This document shows positions 9,035-33,706 of a stretch of DNA of 64,000 bases, piece after piece; positions within the stretch are counted from its first letter, which is position 1; each line of letters opens with the position of its first letter. Source of the DNA: an uncultured Clostridia bacterium (GTDB lineage Bacteria > Bacillota > Clostridia > Oscillospirales > Acutalibacteraceae); assembly GCA_947630835.1 (NCBI GenBank), contig CANRIZ010000003.1:38799-102798 (forward strand). The letters run 5' to 3'. Made by a program: the position numbers and the translations under genes. The notes beneath the pieces were generated by a model that was not told the DNA's origin, did not search any database, and saw only the letters and a program-made list of their open reading frames with translations.

Positions 9035-9298
9035 TTATCCTTCCGGTTTTTCTTTAAGATATTCTTTTACAAGTGTTTGCAAAAGCTCATCTCTGTCAAG
9101 GCGACGAATAAGACTGCGAGCATTATTGTGAGTAGTGATGTAGGTTGGGTCTTCCGAAAGAATATAACCGACTATCTGGCTTATCGGATTGTAACCCTTT
9201 TCCTGAAGCGCATTGTAAACGGCAAGCAGGGTTCTGTGCATTTCCTCATCATACTCATCTTTTATGGAGAATTTAATCGTTTTGTTCGGGTCTAACAT
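9035..9298 (-). CDS. ireB: IreB family regulatory phosphoprotein (UPF0297)
   Basis: IreB in Enterococcus is a small substrate of the PASTA kinase IreK and affects cephalosporin tolerance. The 87 residues show the family features: an N-terminal TIKFSI segment, the helix [18 protein letters not shown], the loop [12 protein letters not shown], the segment [14 protein letters not shown], and the end LVKEYLK. GGAGGTGG precedes the ATG. In many clostridia ireB is next to ruvX, but here ruvX lies about 37 kb away. It forms a two-gene unit with the small protein after it. Confidence 0.93.
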
Positions 9299-27825: not shown

Positions 27826-28398
27826 ATGAAAAAAAGCTATTCGCTTTTTGCGGCATCTTTCCTTGTTGTTATTGCTGCGGCGGCGTTTTCATTGGGCTGC
27901 TATGCAAACCTGGCAAAGGGCGACGTTAACGGCGACGGCAAGTTTTCCGTTGTTGACGCAAAAGCGGTTTTACAAAGCGTCGCTTCTCTCAAAACCCCGG
28001 ATTCCGAGCAGCTTGAACGCGCCGACGTTAATTCGGACGGCAAGTTAAGCGTGACGGACGCCAAATGGATTTTGCAGATAGTCGCGCAGCTTCGTCAGCC
28101 CCCTTCGCAGACAAGCGGTGATTCGTCTGCGGCGGGCAGTACTCCGGCGCAAAGCGAAACCTCAACCGTCGGGCAGACCGAGGTTCCTTCGGTGACCGAG
28201 CCTTCAAGCGAAGCTTCTACCGAGCCTTCTGCTTCCGTTGAAAGCTCAACCGAAGCTCCTGCCGAGCCTTCTACCTCCGGCGAAAGCTCAACCGAGGCTC
28301 CTACATCTTCTTCCGTACCCGAGAAAACGAGTATGGTAGTCGGCGGCGAGACCGGCAATGACGACGACGAACACAATGCGATTATCGACTGGAGATAA
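27826..28398 (+). CDS. Secreted mini-dockerin protein with Ser/Thr/Glu-rich linker and IDWR tail
   Basis: The 190 residues consist of a signal peptide (1 to about 26, the SLGC end being a poor lipobox), a type I dockerin pair (GDVNGDGKFSVVDAK at 32-46 and ADVNSDGKLSVTDAK at 66-80, each with calcium-loop aspartates), a low-complexity linker with repeated STEAPxEPS-type units (92-170), and a C-terminal tail DDDEHNAIIDWR. No catalytic module is present. Dockerins bind cohesins to build cellulosome-like complexes, so this may be a linker, plug or signalling piece. The same tail ends two other proteins in this island. Confidence 0.88.
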   Translation: MKKSYSLFAASFLVVIAAAAFSLGCYANLAKGDVNGDGKFSVVDAKAVLQSVASLKTPDSEQLERADVNSDGKLSVTDAKWILQIVAQLRQPPSQTSGDSSAAGSTPAQSETSTVGQTEVPSVTEPSSEASTEPSASVESSTEAPAEPSTSGESSTEAPTSSSVPEKTSMVVGGETGNDDDEHNAIIDWR

Positions 28399-29126
28399 AC
28401 GCTGTAAAAACAAAGGAGTTTTTATTTGAAAAGAATTTCGGCTTATATTATGTCGGCTTTAATCATATTTTCGCTTGCCTTGTCAACGGGCGTTTGTTCG
28501 TTTGCAAGCGAAACGGAAAAGGTCGGCGACTTAAACGCAGACGGCAAAATAACCGTTGTTGACGCAAAGCTTGTGTTAAAGCATGTGGCGGGCACGCAGG
28601 AGCTTGATTCTTCACAGCTTCGTATGTCGGACGTTAATTCCGACGGCAGAACAACCGTTGCCGACGCCAAGGTTATTTTAAGGGTTGTTGCGGGTATTCA
28701 AAAAATGCCCTCGCTCGCAGTCGGTTCGGAGGAATTTGACGACGACGAACACAATGCGATTATCGATTGGAGATAAACGCTGTAAAAACAAAGGAGTTTT
28801 TAGTATGAAAAGAATTTCGTCTTTTATTATGTCGGCTTTAATCATATTTTCGCTTGCCTTGTCAACGGGCTTTTGTTCGTTTGCAAGCGAAACGGAAAAG
28901 GTCGGCGACTTAAACGCAGACGGCAAAATAACCGTTGTTGACGCAAAGCTTGTGTTAAAGCATGTGGCGGGCACGCAGGAGCTTGATTCTTCACAGCTTC
29001 GTATGTCGGACGTTAATTCCGACGGCAGAACAACCGTTGCCGACGCCAAGGTTATTTTAAGGGTTGTTGCGGGTATTCAAAAAATGCCCTCGCTCGTAGT
29101 CGGTTCTCAGGGATTTGACGACGACG
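28360..29126 (+). repeat. Recent tandem duplication (two copies of a 378/379-bp unit)
   Basis: Unit 1 (28360-28737) and unit 2 (28738-29116) are almost identical, with only a handful of substitutions and a one-base indel near the start codons. Each unit runs from the codons for the DDDEHNAIIDWR tail through the intergenic AAAGGAG into the next dockerin gene, and a third partial match to the junction ends at 29126. This layout indicates unequal exchange between adjacent paralogues. Confidence 0.9.
28426..28776 (+). CDS. Secreted dockerin-only protein with IDWR tail, copy 1
   Basis: The 116 residues are a signal peptide (1-28, SFASE cleavage region), a dockerin pair (GDLNADGKITVVDAK at 34-48 and SDVNSDGRTTVADAK at 68-82) and the tail FDDDEHNAIIDWR. 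Nothing else is encoded: it is essentially a free dockerin. It starts with TTG, whereas the twin copy after it starts with ATG; both have AAAGGAG upstream. It lies within a tandem duplication. Confidence 0.87.
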   Translation: MKRISAYIMSALIIFSLALSTGVCSFASETEKVGDLNADGKITVVDAKLVLKHVAGTQELDSSQLRMSDVNSDGRTTVADAKVILRVVAGIQKMPSLAVGSEEFDDDEHNAIIDWR

Positions 29127-29143
29127 GCTATGTCGAGATTTAA
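28805..29143 (+). CDS. Secreted dockerin-only protein, copy 2 with altered tail
   Basis: The 112 residues are nearly identical to the preceding protein over the signal peptide and both dockerin repeats. The tail diverges after FDDD, reading GYVEI, so the EHNAIIDWR ending is lost. ATG at 28805 follows AAAGGAG; the frame is open further upstream through copy 1 but that part is not expected to be translated. Useful as a natural comparison for what the tail does. Confidence 0.87.
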   Translation: MKRISSFIMSALIIFSLALSTGFCSFASETEKVGDLNADGKITVVDAKLVLKHVAGTQELDSSQLRMSDVNSDGRTTVADAKVILRVVAGIQKMPSLVVGSQGFDDDGYVEI

Positions 29144-29197: not shown

Positions 29198-31804
29198 ATG
29201 AAAAAACAATTGGCGCTTCTTTTGTCGGTTATCATGGCTTTTTCCTGCTTTTCAACGGCGGCTTTTGCCGCTGACGAGCCTACGGAAATAGCTCCGACAC
29301 CGCAGGAAGCAACCGCTTCCGATGCCACGGCAGCAGAAGCAATCAAACTTGGCGACGTCAATATGGATAAGAAAGTTTCCGTTATTGACGCAAAATGGGT
29401 TCTTCAGAACGTAGCAAAAATGAAAGAACTTAACGATTCTCAGAGCCTTGCCGCCGACGTTACGCTTGACGGCAGAATTTCGGTAGCCGACGCAAAGTGG
29501 ATTTTACAGTGCGTAGCCGGTTTAAGAGAATTGGGCGAAATCAATCCCAACGGCGATGTTGTAGAACCCGACGGCGATGAAATGAAAGCTCTCAAAGACG
29601 CCATAGCCCAAGCAAAGGCGGTTGATGCCGCAGGCTATACGGCGCAAAGCGTTGAAGCTCTTGACAAAGCTATTGCCGACGCAGAAGCTTTGGCAGGTAA
29701 AAACAACGTTACCGCACAGCAGATTGACGAAGCCGTTAAGGCTTTGGAGGACGCGCAGAAAGGTCTTGAAACCGATACCGCACCGCTTGAAAAAGCAATC
29801 AGCGACAGCTATTTGAAGGATACTTCAAACTATTTACCCGGCAGCGTAGACAATTTCTATGCGGCGGTAGCCGAGGCGGAGAAGGTTCTTAACGGTAAGG
29901 ATATTACTCCCAAGCAGGTATCCGACGCTGTAGCCGCTATAAAAGCAGCGGAAGCAAACCTTGTGCCGAAACCCGATAAGACGGAGCTTGAAGCCGCTAT
30001 TAACGAGGCTGAGGCTGTTGAAACAGACGGAATGACTCCCGAAAGCATTGAGTCTTTTAACAATGCAATTAAGGCGGCAAAGGCGGTTTACAACAACGAC
30101 AACTCAACGGCTGAGGAAGTTGAAGCCGCAACCAAAGCGCTTAAGGACGCTCAGAACGCTCTGGACAGAGATTACAAAGCGTTGCTTACGGCAAAGAAAG
30201 ACGAAGTCGAAGCTCTTGACTTAACAGGATATACACAGGAAACGAAAGACGCGGTTAATACTGCTATGGAGCAGGCAAACGCCATACTCGAGAATCCCGA
30301 TTCAACTCAGGAAGAGGCTCAAAAGGCTTATGAAGCCCTTGAAGACGCCGTTAACGCTCTTGAAATAGACACTACGGAATTTGACGCGGCTTACAAGGCG
30401 GCAACCGAGGTTGACCCCACGGGCTACACCTCTAATTCCGTATCGGCTCTTAAAGCGGCTATTGAAAACGCGGATGAAGTTAAGGCAAACGCCGAAGCTG
30501 CCGTTGAGGATTACGCTCAGGCAACCGAACAGCTCAACAACGCTATTGAAGGTCTTGCCGCTGATTTGAGCAAACTTAAAAATCTTATGCGTAATTGTTC
30601 GGATTACCTCGGCGACAGGTTTTCTAAAAATTATACAAAGGCAAGTATTGCAGCGCTTCAGGAAGCATATGACAATGCTTCCGAAATAACGGAAAAGAAT
30701 ACTCCCGCCGAAGTTCAGGAAGCATATGACGCTCTTGAAGAAGCAAAAAATAATCTTGTAAGGTTAGCCGATGATTTTGACGTACAGCTCTTCAACGCTT
30801 TACTCAGCGTTTCGCAGAAGACTAAATTTGAAGACTATACCGAAGAAACGGCAAACGCTTTGAGAGACGCTATCGCTCAGGCGGAAATTGTTGCCGCAAA
30901 GGAAGAAAAAACTCAGGCAGAGGTAAAGGAAGCAACGGACGCTCTTACAAAAGCCAGAGACGGTCTTGTTAAAAACAGAGCGGACACATCCGCCCTTGAA
31001 GCTAAGATTGCGGAAGTTACCGAAACTTATTCGGAAGACGACTATACAGACGAGTCATATCAGGCTCTTACAGAGGCTCTTAGCGCCGCTCAGGATGTTG
31101 TTGACAGCGATACTCCCACTGCCTCTCAGGTACAGCAGGCTATGGATGATATCGACAGCGCCGTAGAAGCTCTTGAATCTATTGACGATGCGCTTGCAGC
31201 AGCTTTGGCAGACGCCGAAGAAATCACAAAGGAAGATTACACTCAGCAGACAGCGGACGCTCTTGACGCAGCTGTTAAGGCAGCGCAGTCTCCCACAAAC
31301 AAAAAGCAGGCTCTTAAAGACCTTGAGGACGCTATAGCGGCTCTTAAACCCAACAAAACCGCTCTTGACGCCGCCATTTCAAAGGCAACCGCTATTGAAA
31401 GAACGGATTATACAGAGGACAGCCTCGAGACTTTGGATACGGCTCTTACAAATGCAAGAGCCAAGAGCTCCGACGATACCGCATCTGTTGACGATGTTAA
31501 GACGGCAACCTCCGAGCTTGAAGAAGCTATTAAGGGCTTGAAGGCCGACAAGACCAAGCTTGAGGAGAGAATAACCAAAGCAAGGGCAATCGATACCAAG
31601 GATTGCACCGAAAAGACGGTTCAGGCTCTTACCGAGGCTCTTGCACAGGGAGATAAGGTTATGCAGAACAACTCCGCTACTCCCGACGACGTTAAAGGCG
31701 CTATCGAAGCCATAACAAAGGCGGTTCGCGAGCTTGGCGATAAGTACTTTGACGACGAAGAAAATTCGAGCAGAGTTCCCGTAATCGATTGGAGAAATCC
31801 GTAA
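29198..31804 (+). CDS. Large secreted dockerin/FIVAR-repeat protein with IDWR tail
   Basis: The 868 residues start with a signal peptide (1-24, cut after AAFA), then a dockerin pair (GDVNMDKKVSVIDAK at 52-66 and ADVTLDGRISVADAK at 86-100), unusually at the N terminus. Residues 129 to about 850 hold 11 FIVAR-type helical repeats of 58-70 residues, each with a YT..S...L..A core and an ALE.A...L end. Such repeats form long rods in surface adhesins and glycan-binding proteins. The C terminus reads YFDDEENSSRVPVIDWRNP, close to the tails of the neighbouring mini-dockerins. No LPXTG, SLH or membrane anchor is seen, so attachment is probably through the dockerin. AGGAGG precedes the ATG. Confidence 0.88.
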   Translation: MKKQLALLLSVIMAFSCFSTAAFAADEPTEIAPTPQEATASDATAAEAIKLGDVNMDKKVSVIDAKWVLQNVAKMKELNDSQSLAADVTLDGRISVADAKWILQCVAGLRELGEINPNGDVVEPDGDEMKALKDAIAQAKAVDAAGYTAQSVEALDKAIADAEALAGKNNVTAQQIDEAVKALEDAQKGLETDTAPLEKAISDSYLKDTSNYLPGSVDNFYAAVAEAEKVLNGKDITPKQVSDAVAAIKAAEANLVPKPDKTELEAAINEAEAVETDGMTPESIESFNNAIKAAKAVYNNDNSTAEEVEAATKALKDAQNALDRDYKALLTAKKDEVEALDLTGYTQETKDAVNTAMEQANAILENPDSTQEEAQKAYEALEDAVNALEIDTTEFDAAYKAATEVDPTGYTSNSVSALKAAIENADEVKANAEAAVEDYAQATEQLNNAIEGLAADLSKLKNLMRNCSDYLGDRFSKNYTKASIAALQEAYDNASEITEKNTPAEVQEAYDALEEAKNNLVRLADDFDVQLFNALLSVSQKTKFEDYTEETANALRDAIAQAEIVAAKEEKTQAEVKEATDALTKARDGLVKNRADTSALEAKIAEVTETYSEDDYTDESYQALTEALSAAQDVVDSDTPTASQVQQAMDDIDSAVEALESIDDALAAALADAEEITKEDYTQQTADALDAAVKAAQSPTNKKQALKDLEDAIAALKPNKTALDAAISKATAIERTDYTEDSLETLDTALTNARAKSSDDTASVDDVKTATSELEEAIKGLKADKTKLEERITKARAIDTKDCTEKTVQALTEALAQGDKVMQNNSATPDDVKGAIEAITKAVRELGDKYFDDEENSSRVPVIDWRNP

Positions 31805-31840
31805 TTAAAGCTAAACTGAGCTTTAATCTGTAAACTTATA

Positions 31841-31875
31841 AGAACGGCAGTCTTGAAGATTGCCGTTCTTTTTTG
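31841..31875 (+). terminator. Terminator of the dockerin island
   Basis: AGAACGGCAGTC and GATTGCCGTTCT pair (one G-U) around TTGAA and are followed by TTTTTTG. A smaller stem, ATTAAAGCT/AGCTTTAAT (31804-31827), stands just before it. Confidence 0.85.
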
Positions 31876-31893: not shown

Positions 31894-31923
31894 TTGACAA
31901 AAGCGCATAGACTTTGTTATGAT
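31894..31923 (+). promoter_or_regulatory. Predicted promoter of the PASTA pseudokinase gene
   Basis: TTGACA, 18 nt and TATGAT lie about 30 nt before the start, directly after the preceding terminator. Confidence 0.65.
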
Positions 31924-31953: not shown

Positions 31954-33648
31954 ATGAGTTTAGTGACGGCGGAAAATTTATGTATGAGCTGTATGAAAGA
32001 GATAGGCTCTCAAAAGCAATGCCCGTATTGCGGATTTCGTTCGGATACGCCTCAGATAAAGCCTTGTCTGCCTTTAAGAACTATGATAGGCGGCAGGTAT
32101 GTGATAGGAAAAATGACTGCCTCCGGCGGCGACGGTATCACCTATATGGGGTGGGACGTCGAGAGTAAAACCGCCGTAACGGTCAGGGAATATTTGCCCG
32201 AGGATTTTGCCGGGCGCCCTGCGGGATTAGAGGTCAAAATAAACGTCGGCTGCGAGTCCGATTATTTTAACGGTATGGAGTCTTTTTTAAAGCTTTGGCG
32301 CAAGCTTGCAAGGGTAAGAAACCTTACCGCGCTTATTCCGGTGCTTGATATAATTGAGGAAAACAACACCGCTTATGCCATTTCGGAATATATTGAAACC
32401 ATTACGCTCAGGGATTTTCTTTTAAAAAGCAGAACCGGGTACCTCTCTTGGGAAAAAATTAAGGTTATGCTTATGCCTGTGCTGACGGCCGTTTCGGCGT
32501 TACATTCAATGAACGTCTGCCACAGGGGAATTTCACCCGATACCCTTGTGCTCGGCAGGGACGGCAAGCTAAGGCTTACGGGCTTTATGATAGCCGAGGC
32601 AAGATGCCTTAAAACCGACATCACGGCGGAGATTTTCCCGGGCTATGCCGCAATAGAGCAGTATAACGACGTTGACGATACAGGCGTTTGGACGGATATT
32701 TACGCCCTGGGTGCGGTTGTGTACCGTTCGCTTGTAGGCAGTATACCCGTTGAGGCAACGCAGAGAATAACAAACGATAAGCTTATGATTCCTCCGAAAT
32801 TTGCAGAGACTTTTCCCGCTTATCTCACCTCCGCCCTTGAGCATGCGCTTATGATTTCCCCAAGCGACCGTACCGCAAATATCGACGAGCTTCGAGAGGA
32901 GCTTTCCGGCGCTCCGAGCAAGGTTGTAACAAATATGCTCCACGAATCCGAGCAGTCGGGAACCACTCAGGAGGAGCTTGAAAAAAGGCGTATTCTTGAA
33001 CGGGAAGCCATAAGAGAGCAGCGAAAGAGCGATCAATTAAAAATGATGCTCATAACCTTTGCCATAGTATTGGGCATAGGAGCTTTGGCTGTCGGCGGTT
33101 ACTTCGGCGTAACTTATTTGAAGGAGCATCCGAGGGAAACAACCACAGCTCCCGCGGCGGCCGAGATGATTGAAGTACCCGATTACAGAGGTCAGAGCTT
33201 TTCAAGGATAAGCTCCGACGCCGTTCAGAAAACAAGGTTTAATTTTATCGCAAGCTATGAGTTTTCGAGCGAGGCGGAGGCAGGCGTTATCATTTCCCAG
33301 GACCTTGAACCGGGCAGCACTATTCAAAGAGGTTCCGATATTAACGTAGTTGTAAGCAAGGGTAAGGAGATGATAGTTGTTCCGGACGTAGTCGGCTCAA
33401 ATTATGCGTCGGCGGAGCAGGTTTTGACCGAGGCGGGCTTTACCTGCAAAAAGATTGAAAGGAATAACGACGGTTCACATACCGCAGACGAGGTTGTTTC
33501 CTTAACTCCCGAAGCGGGCGGTTCCTATGAGAGGGGCAAGGAAATTTACGTTCAGGTTTGGGGCCCCGTTCCCACAACCACAACTACCACTACAACAACA
33601 AGAAAGACAATTATAGGCGCTATAGGCGAAAGCGTCGGTATTTTCTGA
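31954..33648 (+). CDS. Zinc-ribbon PASTA protein with a degenerate (pseudo)kinase domain
   Basis: The 564 residues hold an N-terminal four-cysteine ribbon (Cys10, 13, 23, 26), a Ser/Thr-kinase-like domain (48-320), a charged helix, one membrane segment (363-387), two PASTA domains (405-470, 473-537), a run of nine threonines (541-549) and a short end. The fold is kept (SGGDGITYMGWD glycine loop, WTDIYALGAVVYRSLVG), but catalytic residues are lost: the beta-3 lysine is R78 in VREYLP, the HRD motif reads HRG (Gly192), the magnesium-binding asparagine is Thr197, and the DFG aspartate is Gly210 (TGFM). Active relatives of this zinc-ribbon kinase group have HRDISPDN and DFG. It should sense muropeptide-like ligands outside and act as a scaffold inside. 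ATG 31954 lacks a strong Shine-Dalgarno; GTG 31963 is possible. Confidence 0.88.
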   Translation: MSLVTAENLCMSCMKEIGSQKQCPYCGFRSDTPQIKPCLPLRTMIGGRYVIGKMTASGGDGITYMGWDVESKTAVTVREYLPEDFAGRPAGLEVKINVGCESDYFNGMESFLKLWRKLARVRNLTALIPVLDIIEENNTAYAISEYIETITLRDFLLKSRTGYLSWEKIKVMLMPVLTAVSALHSMNVCHRGISPDTLVLGRDGKLRLTGFMIAEARCLKTDITAEIFPGYAAIEQYNDVDDTGVWTDIYALGAVVYRSLVGSIPVEATQRITNDKLMIPPKFAETFPAYLTSALEHALMISPSDRTANIDELREELSGAPSKVVTNMLHESEQSGTTQEELEKRRILEREAIREQRKSDQLKMMLITFAIVLGIGALAVGGYFGVTYLKEHPRETTTAPAAAEMIEVPDYRGQSFSRISSDAVQKTRFNFIASYEFSSEAEAGVIISQDLEPGSTIQRGSDINVVVSKGKEMIVVPDVVGSNYASAEQVLTEAGFTCKKIERNNDGSHTADEVVSLTPEAGGSYERGKEIYVQVWGPVPTTTTTTTTTRKTIIGAIGESVGIF

Positions 33649-33660
33649 ATTTAAATTAAA

Positions 33661-33706
33661 AAAACAGAGACTCTCTTTATTTACGGAGAGTCTCTGTTTT
33701 TTTATG
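33661..33706. terminator. Bidirectional terminator between the pseudokinase gene and nagB
   Basis: CAGAGACTCTC and GAGAGTCTCTG form an 11-bp stem around 9-10 nt, flanked by A-rich and T-rich tracts on both sides. Confidence 0.85.

Follow-up and report, generated by a model that had tools for sequence, protein, structure and literature searches.

In Gram-positive bacteria, PASTA kinases connect the state of the cell wall to protein phosphorylation, and the route from PASTA binding to the kinase was termed under debate in a 2012 review (PMC3601408). Among the pseudokinases described in the text of a 2025 review (PMC12599244), MviN (ActPs3) of mycobacteria is a membrane protein tied to wall control and PknB, EssB/YukC of type VII secretion is anchored in the membrane and serves as a scaffold in Firmicutes, and the ActPs2 and DYD families have Arg for the beta-3 Lys, DYD also being without the alphaC Glu. 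Here we analyze a gene at positions 31954-33648 (+) of a 64,000-nucleotide stretch of contig CANRIZ010000003.1 from an uncultured Clostridia bacterium (assembly GCA_947630835.1); this whole stretch is called the window below. Its 564-amino-acid product, as delineated by translation and Pfam, combines a zinc ribbon, a pseudokinase domain, a transmembrane segment and two PASTA domains, and has lost five residues used in canonical phosphotransfer. Because these residues are gone, yet the domain is maintained by strong selection, the protein likely senses the cell wall and signals by binding partners rather than by phosphorylating them, and would thereby likely be a non-catalytic partner in PASTA-kinase wall signaling.

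Loss of catalytic residues in the window protein

The pseudokinase domain (residues about 45-320; 32086-32913, +), delimited by Pfam and a predicted structure, reaches 53.7 bits with the Pfam Pkinase model (cut-off 31.7), the same search yielding the two PASTA domains. The protein carries Arg78 for the beta-3 Lys (32185-32187, within VTVREYLP), Leu114 for the alphaC Glu (32293-32295, by alignment with active relatives), Gly192 at the HRD Asp position and Thr197 at the catalytic-loop Asn position (32527-32544, within HRGISPDTL), and Gly210 for the DFG Asp (32581-32583, within LTGFM), all on the forward strand. A preliminary description of this DNA had reported R78, G192, T197 and G210 as replacements of catalytic residues, and all four stand at these positions of the translation; it was also right that the structural WTD-Y element is retained (WTDIY intact). 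Its statement that the glycine-rich loop remains is true in part: the loop (32119-32133, +) reads A56-S-G-G-D60-G, as compared with GxGGFG in the aligned active relatives, and thus lacks the first Gly (Ala56) and the aromatic tip (Asp60 for Phe).

These replacements exceed chance and are largely common to the closest proteins, represented by the best 121 of 2220 hits, many of them near-copies. This set comprises 119 relatives in addition to the query and P0002, the query's entry in the database. R78 and T197 are found in 121/121; the HRD Asp position is occupied by Gly in 117 and Ala in 4, and the DFG Asp position by Gly in 116 and Asp in 5.

Distribution and the family-wide signature

In a first survey of 295 genomes of the order, 292 of which are named in the result, a pseudokinase match was observed in each of the 26 named genomes from the window's own family (f1) and in all 25 from a second Clostridia family (f26). 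Residues could be read in all of these 51 genomes except G157, where the contig ends within the pseudokinase gene, leaving 50. A profile survey of 394 genomes gave matches in 136 at a threshold of 1e-40, the listed matches including 43 genomes of f1 and 41 of f26. No genome of either family is among the 20 listed of the 258 genomes without a match, and the family counts of this survey are therefore not full censuses. The resulting residue census comprises these 84 genomes and one genome of a third family (f23), 85 in total.

The HRD Asp is retained in none of the 83 readable copies from the 84 genomes. Its position in the 42 readable f1 copies is occupied by Gly (31, plus L209, which was gapped by the aligner and counted by eye, its own sequence reading HRGISPDT), Ala (9), or Glu (1), and in the 41 f26 copies by Gly (40) or Ala (1). 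Similarly, the proteins near one f26 member that form a second protein set (the best 120 of 2377 hits) have Gly here in 119 cases and a gap in one. The alphaC Glu is missing in 85/85 genomes and the first loop Gly in 84/85, while the loop tip is Asp or Glu in 83/85. In 26 active zinc-ribbon kinases, selected as controls for matching the query and keeping HRD, the HRD Asp is present in 26, the alphaC position is Glu in 25 and Asp in 1, and the two loop positions are Gly and Phe.

Hence the family-wide signature consists of loss of the HRD Asp, the alphaC Glu and the first loop Gly plus an acidic loop-tip residue, and the window lineage has shed more residues than this, since the beta-3 Lys, the DFG Asp and the catalytic Asn are variably retained elsewhere (the Asn in 14 of 41 aligned f1 copies and 16/41 in f26). 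The preliminary description had left it to be checked whether the losses are lineage-wide or unique to this copy: that of the HRD Asp is lineage-wide (83/83), those of the Lys, Asn and DFG Asp are not universal. The kinase fold with its catalytic motifs lost is conserved throughout the clade described below, which is the general mark of a bacterial pseudokinase.

Three further kinase-like proteins were observed around the family. In the f23 genome (G022), L201 matches over its full length and reads HRL instead of HRD, i.e., it has Leu at the HRD Asp position, and the pseudokinase family may extend to this third family. L202, from a genome of the window's genus (G346), is an active-type zinc-ribbon kinase with HRDLTPEN and DFG, and the same genome has the pseudokinase L203. 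Finally, OG_L125_6 (L125, 10466-12358) is a degenerate zinc-ribbon kinase on a long branch outside the pseudokinase clade, with HGNIRPEN and LTGLN; zinc-ribbon kinases in the wider sense thus seem to have lost these motifs a second time. According to the preliminary description, HRDISPDN and DFG are normally retained in zinc-ribbon kinases; this is true of the 26 controls, which were themselves selected for HRD, with OG_L125_6 as a degenerate case.

Before counting, we dropped rows L152 (contig end), L153 (a repeat of L037) and L042 (a near-copy of P0003). Genome G265 is represented in the residue census by P0003, which is similar but not identical to its own copy (L042) and has the same motifs. 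The active kinases L154, L155, L202 and L236 were moved to the controls, L237 was dropped as a PrkC type, and the degenerate OG_L125_6 was left out of both groups. Some alignment rows are repeated (e.g., L015 = L064), and counts over 141, 142 or 174 rows, as well as those over the second protein set, do not refer to independent species.

Selection and phylogeny

Compared with its 86% relative L042, the window gene has a ratio of nonsynonymous to synonymous substitution rates (dN/dS) of 0.093 overall and 0.085 in the kinase part; neighboring genes in the same comparison have 0.156 (U32 peptidase) and 0.075 (dUTPase). The kinase domain is under strong purifying selection in relatives across the two Clostridia families. 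In the tree, the pseudokinases form one clade with a support of 100 in the Shimodaira-Hasegawa-like approximate likelihood-ratio test (SH-aLRT), placed beside the zinc-ribbon HRDISPDN kinases, the deeper forks being open. These kinases, with the motifs GGFGxTY, VAIKEYxP and LIDFGAAR, are the nearest active relatives; the first 22 of them, taken as open frames, range from 306 (a cut frame) to 1364 amino acids, six exceeding 1000.

A protein with all catalytic residues gone, as in the window copy, could be a decaying kinase without function. However, the gene has a dN/dS of 0.093, is present in every family genome visible in the samples, and has no internal stop in any listed profile-survey match (the first survey flagged stops in G237 and G279, with a different alignment). 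Given the low dN/dS and wide distribution, we rejected decay, the probability of which we regard as negligible. The wall-sensing pseudokinase scaffold proposed in the preliminary description is supported in part, as a selected pseudokinase receptor, by the lineage-wide loss, low dN/dS, single clade and conserved architecture, while its wall-sensing part is suggested by the PASTA domains.

Domain architecture

The CxxC...CxxC zinc ribbon (Cys10, Cys13, Cys23 and Cys26; 31981-32031, +), which would bind zinc, has all four Cys in 43/43 f1 and 40/41 f26 genomes. The putative transmembrane segment, a hydrophobic run recognized by eye at residues about 364-389 (33043-33120, +), is spanned in the structure model by a predicted long helix (339-391). 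It is followed by domain matches to PASTA 1 (33169-33360, +) and PASTA 2 (33376-33558, +), and PASTA is present in 91/91 pseudokinases scanned. The true start may be GTG 31963 instead of ATG 31954, because most aligned relatives open with M-x-A-E-N-L-C.

Candidate signaling partners and mechanism

The genome contains three Pkinase matches: the window pseudokinase, a PrkC and a second kinase, STK2. The existence of a true PrkC elsewhere in the genome, proposed earlier as a check, is borne out by a separate gene with intact motifs (VAVK, HRDIKPQN, DFG) and four PASTA hits. STK2 has AIKE, YRDMKPGN and DFG. Both kinases adjoin genes that we read by eye as PP2C phosphatases. FHA was matched three times at two loci, one of them upstream of STK2, and ireB lies in the window at 9053-9286 (-), as the preliminary description had said.

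We propose, with confidence evenly balanced between acceptance and doubt, that the membrane pseudokinase is a non-enzymatic signaling partner. On the outer side of the membrane, fragments of the cell wall would be bound by its PASTA domains; on the inner side, the pseudokinase fold would associate with an active kinase and adjust its activity, the most probable candidate being PrkC, a PASTA kinase. The signal would be passed by binding partner proteins and not by phosphorylation, the protein itself presumably being inactive. The receptor may dimerize: an Arg/Asp pair aligned with PrkC, which we take to correspond to the dimer pair of PknB, is seen as R48 in 160/174 rows and D132 in 132/174. 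More tentatively, and less likely than not, wall-sensing PASTA receptors with a dead kinase could be a core gene of two related Clostridia families and have the active PASTA kinase of these bacteria as partner, the loop acid pairing with the beta-3 Arg to plug the ATP pocket; they would then be the bacterial equivalent of eukaryotic pseudokinase co-receptors. Asp or Glu at position 60 and a basic residue at position 78 occur together in 139/141 rows; this covariation was dropped as a test, since active kinases are also basic at 78.

The partner might instead be engaged as in mycobacterial MviN, i.e., PrkC would phosphorylate the linker or loop of a scaffold on which an FHA protein docks. Besides the MviN precedent itself (PMC12599244), this is consistent with the FHA loci, one beside the second kinase, and with Thr in the window linker (SGTTQEE). 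However, the linkers vary widely in length and sequence and have no common Thr motif (142 rows, by eye), and all three FHA matches are on contigs other than that of the window. We consider such a phosphorylated scaffold unlikely. Contact via the kinase fold is favored over a phosphorylated tail, as far as substitution rates can indicate, because in 5/5 pairs the linker and transmembrane segment have a higher dN than the kinase part, and the linkers are without a common Thr motif.

Several observations weigh against the proposal of a non-enzymatic partner. In the window-L042 pair, dN/dS of the linker and transmembrane segment (0.082) is as low as that of the kinase part. R48 and D132 are not specific, being present in 20/26 and 13/26 active relatives, and therefore allow dimerization without proving it; Ser71, the position matched to PknB L33, is not conserved. 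PrkC is so widespread that its co-occurrence with the pseudokinase proves nothing. No deeply conserved neighbor was found, the commonest neighboring family occurring at 22/83 loci and at 10/38 in a second set. Finally, the beta-3 Lys is retained in 1/43 f1 and 22/41 f26 genomes, as well as in the f23 genome, and the DFG Asp in 8/41 f26 genomes (7 of 41 aligned in f1); in the second protein set, again the best 120 of 2377, these residues are found in 113 and 63 proteins, respectively. Because they persist in many f26-type proteins, some family members may still bind ATP.

The window protein itself might bind ATP or have unconventional catalysis despite its losses. Apart from the Lys and, less often, DFG Asp kept in f26, Arg in place of Lys fits the ATP binding modeled for the ActPs2 and DYD families (PMC12599244). 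In contrast, the window copy is without the Lys, alphaC Glu, HRD Asp, Asn and DFG Asp, and the loop-tip acid (83/85 genomes), which would repel phosphates, is accompanied by loss of the first Gly (84/85). Residual ATP binding or catalysis in this copy is thus improbable, and non-enzymatic signaling is the reading that we prefer.

Gene neighborhood

The preliminary description had suggested that the receptor reports on the adjacent secreted dockerin/FIVAR machinery. Dockerin genes indeed adjoin the pseudokinase gene both in the window and in the sister region L042, where they lie in gaps of 4286 and 3735 bases, respectively, between it and an upstream dUTPase gene. In L044, L045, L046 and L051, however, only 61-91 bases separate the upstream dUTPase gene from the pseudokinase gene, with nothing between, and in L043 the gap of 497 bases holds one small non-dockerin gene; no dockerin gene is present in this interval in any of the five, and among the close relatives listed, the window and L042 are the only ones with dockerin genes at the locus. 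Between the FIVAR/dockerin gene and the pseudokinase gene, the window has a terminator-like stem of 14 pairs with a T run (31840-31870, +) and a promoter-like site TTGACA-18-TATGAT (11/12; 31894-31923, +), and another terminator-like stem lies 3' of the pseudokinase gene (33683-33697, +). These are consensus matches from a scan that found 5 of each type versus 2.8-2.9 expected in shuffles (terminator 2.8, promoter 2.9), and they suggest that the pseudokinase gene is its own transcription unit. Moreover, the pseudokinase family is found far outside this locus type. A tie to the dockerin/FIVAR machinery is therefore very improbable, and the idea is not sustained. The association is likely a recent insertion, given the five relatives without dockerin, the separating sites and the lack of a deeply conserved neighbor.

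Neighbors were clustered for 83 loci (including one repeat, as L129 is another cut of the L042 genome region) and then for 120 loci with 38 new ones, the pseudokinase of L158 not being called. They are patchy: glycogen-synthesis genes at 20-22/83 loci, ZapA and U32 peptidase at 13/83, YebC at 10/38 (glycogen and YebC names were assigned by reading sequences). An operon partner was rejected on these grounds.

The dockerin cluster itself has several peculiarities. Four dockerin-type proteins (window 27826-28398, 28426-28776 and 29198-31804; L042 6332-7564) have signal-like starts and end in or near [IV]IDWR. The IDWR-plus-stop pattern occurs at 3 places genome-wide, two of them in the window cluster, and the reversed-pattern control at 1; the ending is possibly, on slight indications, a C-terminal tag. 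Positions 28426-29143 hold a tandem pair of near-identical dockerin genes with different C-terminal tails, and 29198-31804 encodes an 868-amino-acid protein with one dockerin and eight FIVAR stretches. Cohesin gave one match above cut-off and two below in the genome.

Comparison with known systems

Among the protein hits listed for the window protein and the f26 member, most have no source name or are named PASTA domain-containing protein, one being a eukaryotic-like serine/threonine-protein kinase. Among the titles listed in literature searches on PASTA and pseudokinases, none concerns such a receptor. The text of the 2025 review (PMC12599244) covers seven pseudokinase-rich families and ascribes PASTA domains to none of them, the term appearing a single time, in its reference list; the family may exist unnamed in the primary bacterial kinase atlas behind that review. 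If the proposal is true, a widely conserved non-catalytic PASTA receptor beside an intact PrkC would make signal transmission separable from catalysis for study.

By their text descriptions there, the seven families differ from the window protein in motif or architecture. MviN has an activation-loop deletion, whereas in the window protein the loop extends as far as GYAAIEQY and is followed by PASTA domains. EssB/YukC differs from the window protein, which has PASTA domains and a zinc ribbon, and YukC is not among its Pfam hits up to an E-value of 1. In ActPs2 the HRD Asp is replaced by Asn and the activation loop usually has a large insertion, while the window protein reads HRG and has no large insertion; DYD has DYD for DFG, where the window protein reads GFM.

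With the PASTA kinases PrkC/PknB/Stk1 (NF033483), the window protein shares a cytoplasmic kinase fold, one transmembrane segment (by eye) and PASTA repeats beyond it, but it has an N-terminal zinc ribbon, two PASTA domains and no intact Lys, HRD Asp or DFG, and its score with this equivalog model is 163.1 bits, below the cut-off of 450. Zinc-ribbon HRDISPDN kinases from this bacterium's order have in common with it the CxxC-CxxC ribbon, the KEYxP-like strand, GYxxxEQY and TDxY; they keep the catalytic residues that the window pseudokinase has lost.
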